A stretch of DNA of 64,000 nt, from assembly GCF_019649055.1 (NCBI RefSeq), contig NW_026570227.1:1798001-1862000 (forward strand), written 5' to 3'. Under the pieces are notes generated by a model, which was not told the origin of the DNA, made no database searches, and was given only the letters and a program-made list of their open reading frames with translations. The stretch is from Paramacrobiotus metropolitanus. Lineage: Eukaryota; Tardigrada; Eutardigrada; Parachela; Macrobiotidae. Below are positions 28 to 17,458 of the stretch, piece after piece (the first letter of the stretch is position 1; each line of letters begins with the position of its first letter). A program made the translations under genes and the position numbers.

Positions 28-960
28 CTTAATACGCGTTCCCGGGTCGCTGACAAACTGCAGGTGGCAGATATCGGAACTGGACGTGAACTTGCCAGGC
101 AGGCCGAGCGTTCTGAAGTAGAAGCTGTTGCGTGCGCCCACGTACAGGCTGCCCGTCGTTCTGCACACTAAGGGAAGAAAGCAAGCACGTATGGCTAATA
201 TATAGAAGATAATGTAGAATAATTACGGCTCTGCCACTGCAGCAGGGTTATACGGTATACGAGGTCATCAACCGGAAATGATTACAGTACGAGAACAGCC
301 GGTTACGAGATCGTGACCCGGCCAGCGTTGCGCAGGTCCGGTAGCCGCTTACTGGTGGCGGTGGACACGAAGGGCACTGCGCAGCCGCCCGCTGTGCAGC
401 TGCCGCCGCCGGGAAGGGTGACGGGGCAGGGCGGGCAGGCCGGGCAGGCCGGAATCGTCGGACACGCAGGCGGGGTCGGACAGGCAGGCGGGGCTGGACA
501 AGCCGGCGGTGTTGGACAGGCCGGCGGGGTCGGACAGGCCGGCGGGGTCGGACAGGCAGGCGGGGTCGGACAGGCAGGCGGGGTCGGACAGGCAGGCGGG
601 GCTTGACAGGTGACGGGGGTGCAGGTTACTTCGGGACAGGCCGGCGGGGTTGGACAGGCAGGCGGGCTTTCACAGGTAACGGGGGTGCAGGTGACTGGGG
701 TACAGGTAACGGGGGTGCAGGTAACGGGGGTGCAGGTTACTTCGGGGCAAGCCGGCGCAGCGGGACAGTTGCCCGCCGGCGGACAGGGCGGACAGCTGAC
801 GGAAGAACAGGTCACTTCCGGGCAGGCCGGCGGGGACGGCGGATTGGGGCAGGCGGGGATGATGGGCGGCGCCGGGCAGGTCAAGGTCAGCGGCTGCTCT
901 TCCCGCTGCCAGCCGGAATAGGCGCGGCGGGATTGGTCTCCACCATCGTACGATTCGTAT
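28..960 (-). CDS. Secreted Cys/Pro-repeat + CUB-like protein (gene C), 3' end outside window
   Basis: Two exons are visible. The first (about 960 to 353, acceptor AG at 961-962) encodes a region of PPACPT and CTPVTC repeats and ends in donor GTAAGC after one base of a codon. The second (167 to 28) starts TGTGCAG and encodes a CUB-like first half: Cys, [11 protein letters not shown], a second Cys followed by HLQFVS, then RIK and donor GTGCGT. The A|TG junction and the exon's sequence match genes A and B to the right, which identifies the domain although the remaining CUB exons lie beyond position 1. No signal-peptide exon was found; it should lie above position 960. Role inferred: secreted structural or adhesive protein. 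The repeat exon alone could be mistaken for a complete Pro/Cys-rich ORF (303-1007). Confidence 0.6.
440..745 (-). repeat. In-frame minisatellite coding Cys-Pro repeats
   Basis: An 18-bp unit (plus strand, roughly gcaggcggggtcggacag) is repeated about eight times between 470 and 600, giving PPACPT per unit on the minus strand. A 15-bp unit (gtaacgggggtgcag) is repeated between 670 and 735, giving CTPVT. Both lie inside the first visible exon of gene C, so copy number should vary without breaking frame. Confidence 0.8.
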
Positions 961-1231
961 CTGCATAAGACAGCCCAAACCGCGTCACAAGTGCCGCTTA
1001 CACACACGAAGCTCTGTATTCATTGCAGTGCAGGTAACTGTGACCTGTCTCGAGCCAGGGATGTGGAATTGCGGAGGGAGGACCGGGCTGTACAGCTCTG
1101 TGGGCTCCTGGGCCGAAAGAAACAATACATTCTTGCGTGCGATAATGTTTAATAAGACCTGCTATGAGAACGAGGTATGAGAATAAGTACTGTAGCGCAC
1201 ATAGTTTGTCTTGATGGGATAGATAGATCCC

Positions 1232-14800: not shown

Positions 14801-17458
14801 AGGGTTATGAGTATGAGGACCGTTATGAGAATTAGGGTTTGGGAGCGCGCGACAGCGGAAGTTGCCGTGGATACATACAAATTTGGTGCTATGTACCGGG
14901 CCAAACCCCTTAAGACCGCGAGATATTGAGGTACTCAGACATTTCTAGACATTTTAAAAATTCGAAACTCTGGAGGCTCAGAAAATTAGAGGTAACGGCC
15001 CCGCTGCGCGGGGCCGAGTCGAAATATTTAGAAATTCTGGAAATGTAAAAGCTTTGGAGCCGACTTTGGAAAAATTAATAGTTATTTTGAGGTATTCAAA
15101 CATGTTTTAAAAACATCTTAAAGGTTTCAAAAATTTAAGAAAGTTATAATTTTGATGGAATTGACAATTTAAATAACATACACAGATCTGTAGTTTAGGT
15201 TGCTAAGCTGCGAAACAGACTACAACAGTACTACAACAATACAGTACAGTACAGTACTACAACTGTAATACAGTACAGTATACAGTACTGTAATACAGCT
15301 TTTATATTGTATTAATACGCTGGCGATGAAGTGATAGTAGTACTACATTTAATTGCTACAACTTACGTACTGAGTACTGTAAAGTACTCATTCATTGCCA
15401 AAATAAGTAATTTAATTAGTAGTACAGTACCTTTAAGTACTAACAACATTTTAAGTACTGTACTGCAACATTTAAAAATTTTTTAAGAACTGCTTTAAAA
15501 CTGATAATTTTTTTAAAGATAAAGGTAGGAACGTTTGTGTGATGCTCAATTTTATAAAAATAATAACTTTTTGAAAAGGTCAATGTTGATTTAGGAGATA
15601 ATTTCCAAAACTAACAACTTTTAAGTACTAAAAACCCTTAAGTACTACAACTTTTAAAAATTTTATTTAGACTTTCTCCAACACTTAAGATTTTTTTAAA
15701 GATAATGGTAGGAACGTTTGTGTGATGCTGTATTTTATGAAATTAATAACTTCTTGAAAAAATCAATGTTCATTTAGGAGATAATTTCCAAAAAATAAGG
15801 ACAGGACGTAAGGATATATGAATCTATTGATATCCCTAGTCCTACTGCGGGTAATTAAACCAATTTATCAGGCATACTGTACTTGTACCAAAACGAAAAA
15901 CAGTGTTTGTTTGTTAATCTAAATAAATTATGTGTAATGCAGTAACTAATAATATTTGAGGAATATACAACCGGCGTGCTCCGCTTGCCAGTGGTAATGG
16001 ACTAATGGTTAATAAGCAAACTGCACACAGTACAATTTCGAATTCACAATTTGAATTAATCAGGAGCATTGAGCTTTGCGTGGTTGCAGTGTGCGTGGAC
16101 GCCGGTCCCCTCAGCGTCGGCCCCAGTGACGTCATCTTCTTCACCAGCCAGCATTATCAACGGGGATACATCCAATCCGCCACCACTCCCTGCACGTTGC
16201 AATTCGTCAGCACGCTCCCGCAGGCCAAAATCCAGGCGCCACTAATATCTGTACATGATATATGTACAAGCTTGCCCCGTAATTTCGATCGATCATCACT
16301 AGCGTCACCTCACTATGGTTATACAGATATACAGAATATCTGTATCTACAGACTATCGTGAAGACAAAATTCAATATTTAACGCGAAAGTTGCGCTATCA
16401 GTGACTGCTGTTGCGATGCTTACATAAAATTTACTTTGTACAATCATATATGTAGTTTATTACGTAGCTGGACAAATCAGATGTTCCACCAGCGCCATGG
16501 AGTCACTCGTGATCAATAAATTAATGCAACCGGAAAATTTATATCAGACCACAACTGGCTGCAAGGATAGGTTGAAAATCTGAGTGAAAATGTATTAATT
16601 CGGTGGTAATTTACAGTACTAGTTTGCTTCTGTATTCGGCTAGTCAGGTGAGCCAGTACACAATGACAATTAGCCGGCGCCGATTTACACTAATGAAAAT
16701 GATTAAATTTAAATTTGCTAGTTCAAGATCGTGGCTGTACCGTATGTTCCTTTATTGCAGTTCACAAATGAACATTTCCACAATACAGAGGTGAGTCCGC
16801 GGACGGCACACGTAGCGATGGCTAATTTTTGAGCAGTGGAATAATTATAATATGAACACTGTATCATAATTATTTCACGGAAATAGACATATAAAATTAA
16901 TATCTATGTACGTGGTGTAAGCGTGCGGTACTGTTTTTAGGGCTGGTGCGATGACGACTATATGTACCTATCGTTTGACGGGATGAGTTACTGCGACTGT
17001 TCATCCGGTCCGCTGCCCATTACCTTGATATCCACAGGCACCTCCGTGGTGAGTGACCCTTTCATTAATTAAGGAAAATGGCCCGATACTGGCAGTCGGT
17101 GTTATATACTAATTATTGTATTTCTCCATAGAAACTTTCGAATTAGCGCACTGCGTTTTGACATGGGCCAATGTTTGTGCGTATACTTTATACTCGTACT
17201 TATACACTGGCCGGAAAAGATTAAAATGTCAGGGAGTGCGAAAATGCTCAACAATTATAGCGGATGTAAACGGAATATCAAAACACCACGCATTGGGTCC
17301 TTTCAGTTAGGAAGTTTGGTCAGCGCCAGTATGTACTGCATTTGTCACTGAATCGTCTTTTCCTGGTGTAGACGGTGGTGCAGCAACGCGCATACCGGAA
17401 GAGCGGAAGCAGTCCCTACTCGTACGGATTTGCATTCTTGGTTACACTCGTCTACTGA
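8851..17458 (+). CDS. Multi-repeat cadherin/He_PIG-like + CUB protein (gene B), possibly decaying
   Basis: A long exon ending at 10468 encodes five about 82-residue repeats from about 9160 (QCTAGTSVG, HFSIS, GTYTPTVTATN pattern, two Cys each), then the linker PGQAT and a phase-1 donor. CUB exons follow at 16090-16235, 16761-16790, 16941-17048 and 17372-17458, each matching gene A in phase and sequence. Three problems: a degenerate sixth repeat at about 8900-9080 ends in an in-frame TGA (9082-9084); the only signal-peptide-like stretch (ATG 8861) is in another frame from that repeat; and the first CUB exon ends CAG|GCGCCA rather than GT. The intact 1.35-kb repeat frame argues against long neutral decay, so the true start may be a different exon. 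Intron 1 is 5.6 kb versus 1.1 kb in gene A. Confidence 0.55.
13818..14912. mobile_element. 1.1-kb element with about 250-bp terminal inverted repeats
   Basis: 13818-14095 (agggatttggcccggcatat onward) matches the reverse complement of 14683-14912, through rows of cataatcataatcatacttt-type sequence. The centre (about 590 bases) has no transposase, so it is non-autonomous. The terminal bases resemble the foldback copies at 1232 and 6880 (cccggtacat, gtaccaaatt, cttt/cgctgtcgcgc), suggesting one superfamily. Confidence 0.7.
15500..15800. repeat. Tandem duplication, about 190-bp period
   Basis: ggtaggaacgtttgtgtgat followed by tttaggagataatttccaaaa occurs twice (about 15526-15615 and 15710-15800) with about 85-90 percent identity by eye. 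Confidence 0.65.

Follow-up and report, generated by a model that had tools for sequence, protein, structure and literature searches.

The window analysed here is a stretch of 64,000 nucleotides from the tardigrade Paramacrobiotus metropolitanus (contig NW_026570227.1, here C7, positions 1798001-1862000; coordinates below are those of the window unless another stretch is named), and at its start lies a cluster of about 17 kb with three predicted genes, C, A and B, whose models were read and spliced from the DNA alone. All three genes end in a CUB-like cassette of four exons, which includes a conserved exon of 30 nt and has introns of phases 1, 0, 0 and 0. In gene A, on the plus strand, these exons are 5979..6124 (entered in phase 1 and left in phase 0), 6609..6638 (the 30-nt exon, FTNEYFHIKE), 7389..7502 and 7607..7687, the last with the stop codon, and the spliced protein has 243 residues. 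Gene B, on the same strand, has its cassette at 16090..16235, 16761..16790 (30 nt, FTNEHFHNTE), 16941..17048 and 17372..17458, again with the stop codon in the last exon; the donor of its first cassette exon reads GC (CAG/GCGCCA, a slash marking the splice point here and below). Gene C runs on the minus strand, and only its first cassette exon (28..167) falls inside the window. Its last three sit just upstream, in the adjoining stretch L002 (C7:1788001-1798000), also on the minus strand, at 9920-9891 (30 nt, FTTKFFYIRQ; AG acceptor and GT donor), 9628-9500 (AG acceptor and GT donor) and 9367-9275 (AG acceptor, with the stop codon); the joined C cassette is stop-free.

Relative to the cassette of A, that of B is 73 % identical and that of C 35 %, and the cysteines C2, C35, C66 and C79 of A are invariant in the alignment of the three. 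The local score of the A cassette with the C cassette is 167, the maximum among 2,000 shuffles being 58. The original prediction for this DNA, made from its letters and open reading frames, had held that the CUB exons can be aligned from gene to gene, and in this it was right. For the pair of A and B, nonsynonymous divergence (dN) is 0.155 and synonymous divergence (dS) 0.464 over 119 codons, values that speak for constraint on that pair; the corresponding values for A and C are 0.71 and 1.58. A, B and C share with CUB proteins (PF00431) a set of four cysteines, the third of which belongs to a CDxDY motif, and we take their spacing, together with CDxDY, to be the marks of a CUB domain. The cassette differs from such proteins in being a single terminal copy with three phase-0 introns and one exon of 30 nt. 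We name it CUB-like because its PF00431 scores stay under the cut-off of that family; sequence searches of solved structures with the cassette gave only rows with E values from 0.7 to 0.98, none of them a CUB protein.

The cassette is joined to the preceding exon in the same manner in each gene. In the spliced sequence, the junction of gene C (353/167, minus strand) reads GCC ACC A/GTAAGC ... TTAG/TGTGCAG, that of gene A (4913/5979) GCC ACA A/GTAAGA ... GCAG/TGTGCGT and that of gene B (10468/16090) GCA ACC A/GTAAGG ... GCAG/TGTGCGT. By sequence, the predicted junctions are of phase 1 in all three cases, each yielding Thr-Met(ATG)-Cys(TGC). Thus, the Thr codon followed by an A/GT donor, the TGTGC restart and the resulting ATG-TGC, all of which had been proposed for the three genes, are indeed seen when C, A and B are spliced. 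Genome searches were made in an assembly of 169,799,020 bases in 533 contigs. The linker end shared by two of the genes, PGQAT followed by A/GTAAG, has two matches there, in genes A and B (control, 0), and a third gene with this linker end was not found in the assembly search.

Upstream of the junction the genes differ. Exon 1 of gene A (4553..4913, plus strand) encodes a hydrophobic start, judged by eye to be a signal peptide, one cadherin-fold repeat with two cysteines and a Pro-rich linker, and A is the most clearly intact of the three genes. The repeat exon of gene B (9085..10468, plus strand) encodes, in a single open frame, five cadherin-fold repeats and a Pro-rich linker; the repeat units lie 251-258 nt apart, all inside that one exon. 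A possible 5' end of gene B (8861..9084, plus strand) contains a sixth, degenerate repeat and a signal-peptide-like start that is out of frame with the repeat. At this broken 5' end, a short direct duplication (GTGGCTGAACATGGCGCT) is found at 8855-8905. Together, the six intact repeats of A and B form one family, with identities of 50-63 % to the third repeat of B (54 % for the repeat of A). Because they do so, the locus has two kinds of N-terminus and not three. The view that the N-terminal parts of the three genes are unrelated is therefore right for C in comparison with A and B, and wrong for A in comparison with B.

In gene C, the 3' part of a Cys/Pro-rich repeat exon lies at 353..890 on the minus strand and is built of 18-nt units, PACPTP, EVTCTPVTC being present as well. 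The genome search with the Cys/Pro repeat gave two matches at E <= 0.01, of which one is the query and the other a weak hit in the stretch that holds it, and none outside C; low-complexity repeats of this sort may be missed in such a search.

A structural model was predicted for one of the six repeats of A and B, the third repeat of B, with a mean predicted local distance difference test score (pLDDT) of 94.4. Over 85 residues the predicted fold matches that of cadherin extracellular repeats (best Z 12.8, root-mean-square deviation 1.5; best Foldseek E 2e-4), and cadherin-type proteins account for all 50 of the listed rows in the Z-scored fold search and for 48 of 50 in Foldseek, the exceptions being 4ak1 and 4u7m. 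In Pfam, the five repeats of B taken together score 35.3 bits with PKD (PF00801; cut-off 23.5) and 29.3 bits with Cadherin (cut-off 28.8), and InlK_D3 is marginally over its own cut-off; PKD is not reported for the single repeat of A. PKD thus outscores Cadherin in Pfam for gene B, whereas the fold rows favour cadherins. LDRE, DxNDN and DxD, which we take to be the calcium motifs of cadherin repeats, occur in none of the six repeats of A and B, and in this the repeats differ from those of cadherins; each has two cysteines instead. On the predicted model, the A/B repeat is read as a cadherin fold without known calcium sites. Genome-wide, the family has 37 matches at E <= 0.001 on eleven contigs, 31 of them on ten contigs other than C7. 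In the stretches from those contigs that were looked at (L003-L014), the two-cysteine repeat is joined to Tyr/Gly/Thr-rich stretches, for example TYPYTGTTGL in L003, and this combination suggests a large family of structural proteins.

How special the shared junction is can be judged from other CUB exons of the genome. The search with PF00431 gave 88 matches at E <= 1, of which the 34 that start at profile position 1 were sampled (54 were left out). The test scores AG dinucleotides, which are not proven splice sites, and the sample includes clustered, non-independent copies. The codon of the first CUB cysteine (Cys1) is TGT or TGC in all 34, and in 17 of them an AG stands exactly two bases ahead of it, which is the phase-1 boundary of A, B and C; an AG followed by 0, 1, 3 or 4 bases is seen in 0, 1, 1 and 1 of the 34, respectively, and in 7 the AG is followed by five bases, which is phase 1 placed one codon further upstream. 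By place, the 17 are 9 of 12 matches on contig C20, 3 of 5 on C8 and 5 of 17 on the remaining contigs; two of them (L015, 2268025 and 2266205, both among the three on C8) have no clear pyrimidine tract and could have arisen by chance, and two of the 17 have AG/TG before the cysteine, as do A, B and C. The position and phase of the junction would thus be common among CUB exons in this genome, and because half of the sampled matches have the same boundary the junction appears to carry no special signal. Common descent of the three copies is enough to explain why ATG-TGC is identical in them. Two of the CUB matches, at C151:257642 and C146:281045, are near-identical and possibly represent haplotypes or a recent duplication.

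Further copies of the cassette with new N-termini would have supported the original prediction, and none was found in this assembly by cassette, exon or profile searches. With the joined cassette of A six rows were obtained, of which five belong to genes A and B on C7 and the sixth, with an E value of 0.6, lies on contig C90; the first CUB exon of C gave one row, itself, and the whole C cassette three, all in C. These genome searches were run exon by exon, so that diverged copies or runs of N can hide matches, and the absence of a further copy from the assembly holds at the sensitivity used; the search with PF00431 does not see cassettes that have diverged as far as those of the three genes. 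Profiles built from the exons of A, B and C were also scanned over twelve repeat-bearing stretches of 10 kb from the ten other contigs (L003-L014), which mostly take in the region 3' of the repeats for part of the 31 outside matches, over the 20 kb upstream of the window (L001 and L002, C7:1778001-1798000) and over the window itself. Among the matches listed, no cassette was detected in L003-L014: the best row of the first-half profile outside A, B and C has an E value of 0.23 (L012), and with the second-half profile the best remaining row, at 0.036, corresponds to the exon of C itself in L002, the next being 1.6 (L010). In the window, only exons of A, B and C fall below an E value of 0.2, again among the matches listed.

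We favour the reading that the three genes are paralogous copies of a single gene for a secreted protein, A and B lying in tandem and C in the opposite orientation, and give it a probability of about 0.75. An ancestral gene composed of signal peptide, N-terminal module, linker and CUB would have been duplicated, giving rise to the C lineage first and to A and B later. Change at the N-terminus would have come about by growth of tandem repeats within an exon, from which A has one unit and B five intact ones, with one further difference in kind, that between the Cys/Pro repeats of C and the cadherin-fold repeat of A and B. The products would be secreted, disulfide-bonded modular proteins in the case of A and perhaps of B and C, with the CUB-like domain probably binding a partner and the N-terminal repeats perhaps setting length and spacing.

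Several observations weigh against this reading. In Pfam, PF00431 is the best row for the cassette, and it remains below its cut-off of 21.4 bits with scores of 17.3 for A and 16.4 for C; it reports no row for the cassette of B, and the genome search with the same model lists none of A, B and C at E <= 1. All junctions are predictions from the DNA sequence. In gene B, an in-frame TGA (9082-9084) closes the repeat frame inside the degenerate sixth repeat; past it there is an ATG at 9121-9123, with no signal peptide in frame, and the signal-peptide-like start lies in another frame than the repeats. Moreover, the second donor of B (after 16235) is GC and not GT, in a context that looks poor by eye. 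The 5' end of B may reflect decay or, given long-read data, an assembly error, and B itself may not be a working gene. In gene C, the repeat frame (303-1019) is open on the minus strand and has no start codon, and a search for a first exon by hydrophobic start and donor did not find one; the two weak candidates, with donors after 4727 (antisense to exon 1 of A) and after 2347, are unconvincing. Finally, the direction and number of the N-terminal changes cannot be polarised from this one genome. On another reading, part of the cluster would be an artefact, B being a decaying pseudogene or a long-read assembly error, or the Cys/Pro frame of C being non-coding. The TGA, the out-of-frame start and the GC donor of B fit this, as do the missing start codon of C, the plus-strand frame that is likewise open across its Cys/Pro repeat, and the making of the published P. 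metropolitanus assembly with Canu and of the published reads by nanopore sequencing (PMC11191345, in the part concerned with these data). However, B has 123 codons without a stop in its CUB exons and 461 in its repeat frame, and the minus frame of C joins the conserved cassette in frame and has 30 cysteines in 179 residues. We regard an artefact as less likely than not.

The difference in kind between C and A/B admits more than one history, and the readings considered here overlap, so that the confidences placed in them need not sum to one. The CUB domain is, we assume, a class 1-1 module. PMC8001218 describes class 1-1 modules as what exon shuffling has classically worked with in extracellular proteins, and for this reason one past exchange is plausible: once the C lineage had separated from that of A and B, a first exon that carried a promoter, a signal peptide and the repeat would have been placed before the cassette at the phase-1 boundary. 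Such an event is compatible with descent of the three genes from one ancestor, and we hold its chances to be only slightly short of even. It is in keeping with the shuffling-competent phase of the boundary, with N-termini (Cys/Pro in C, cadherin-fold in A and B) that look unrelated by eye and with the 31 of 37 repeat matches that lie on ten other contigs, where no cassette was detected in the twelve stretches scanned; like the modules described in PMC8001218, the A/B/C genes have extracellular-type beta modules and a phase-1 intron at a boundary. Unlike those modules, the cassette is 3'-terminal, ends in a stop codon and has internal introns of phase 0; a phase-1 intron at its C-terminal boundary is not seen in A, B or C, and at most one exchange is visible at the locus. 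Moreover, a single exchange is indistinguishable from loss of the cadherin-like repeat in C coupled with expansion of a linker rich in Cys and Pro. The linkers neither support nor contradict that route, since those of A and B resemble the end of C no more than shuffles do: growth of the C repeats from the A/B linker is not significant, 395 and 1,148 of 2,000 shuffles reaching the linker scores. A more specific form of the exchange, in which the incoming 5' exon placed a signal peptide and a cadherin-fold repeat of disulfide type, lacking the known calcium motifs, before the cassette after C had split off, is put forward tentatively, and so is its consequence, a secreted cadherin-repeat/CUB family in which the number of repeats varies between copies. 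If the single exchange is true, the locus would be a compact tardigrade example of module shuffling at a classical phase-1 boundary, and the repeats of A and B would belong to a large group of cadherin-fold, cysteine-paired proteins that was not found in our literature searches; in the titles and opening lines of abstracts returned by these searches, whose coverage did not extend to most subscription journals, no description of this tardigrade CUB-like/cadherin-repeat family was found either.

The original prediction had gone further and had seen here a locus that diversifies secreted proteins by repeatedly swapping N-terminal exons before a fixed CUB cassette. Parts of that reading stand: the C-terminal cassette is a single conserved one, the phase-1 junction is shared by the genes, and the N-termini are of more than one kind. 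The occurrence of two such kinds before the same cassette inside 17 kb might be taken to favour it. However, three or more unrelated N-termini on the cassette are not seen, the number of kinds being two, with A and B having the same one, and no further cassette was found at the sensitivity used, the scan of the window included; duplication, repeat growth within an exon of B and one difference of N-terminus suffice. Present evidence does not bear out the claim that the locus is a diversifying one, and we consider repeated swapping very improbable.

Around the cluster, other genes can be recognised. Upstream of it is a small Cys-rich gene of secreted type (CVWHGSAP, CMASCPAGKFKVEG, CCVTGEKFVCCPNGW), in at least two copies and, by eye, probably more; for the copies at 1892-2158 of L002 and 9758-10000 of L001, Pfam gives no family for either at E <= 0.001. 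Past the 3' end of C, L002 also holds a fragment of a rhodopsin-type receptor (7017-7508; 7tm_1, 23.2 bits, below cut-off) and a Kazal inhibitor stretch (5743-6105). Elsewhere in the window, Pfam identifies on the minus strand a sugar transporter (18752-19435), a [2Fe-2S] binding domain (32328-32651), by eye of xanthine-dehydrogenase type, and a protein-kinase-like domain (55400-55975), by eye of receptor guanylate cyclase type.

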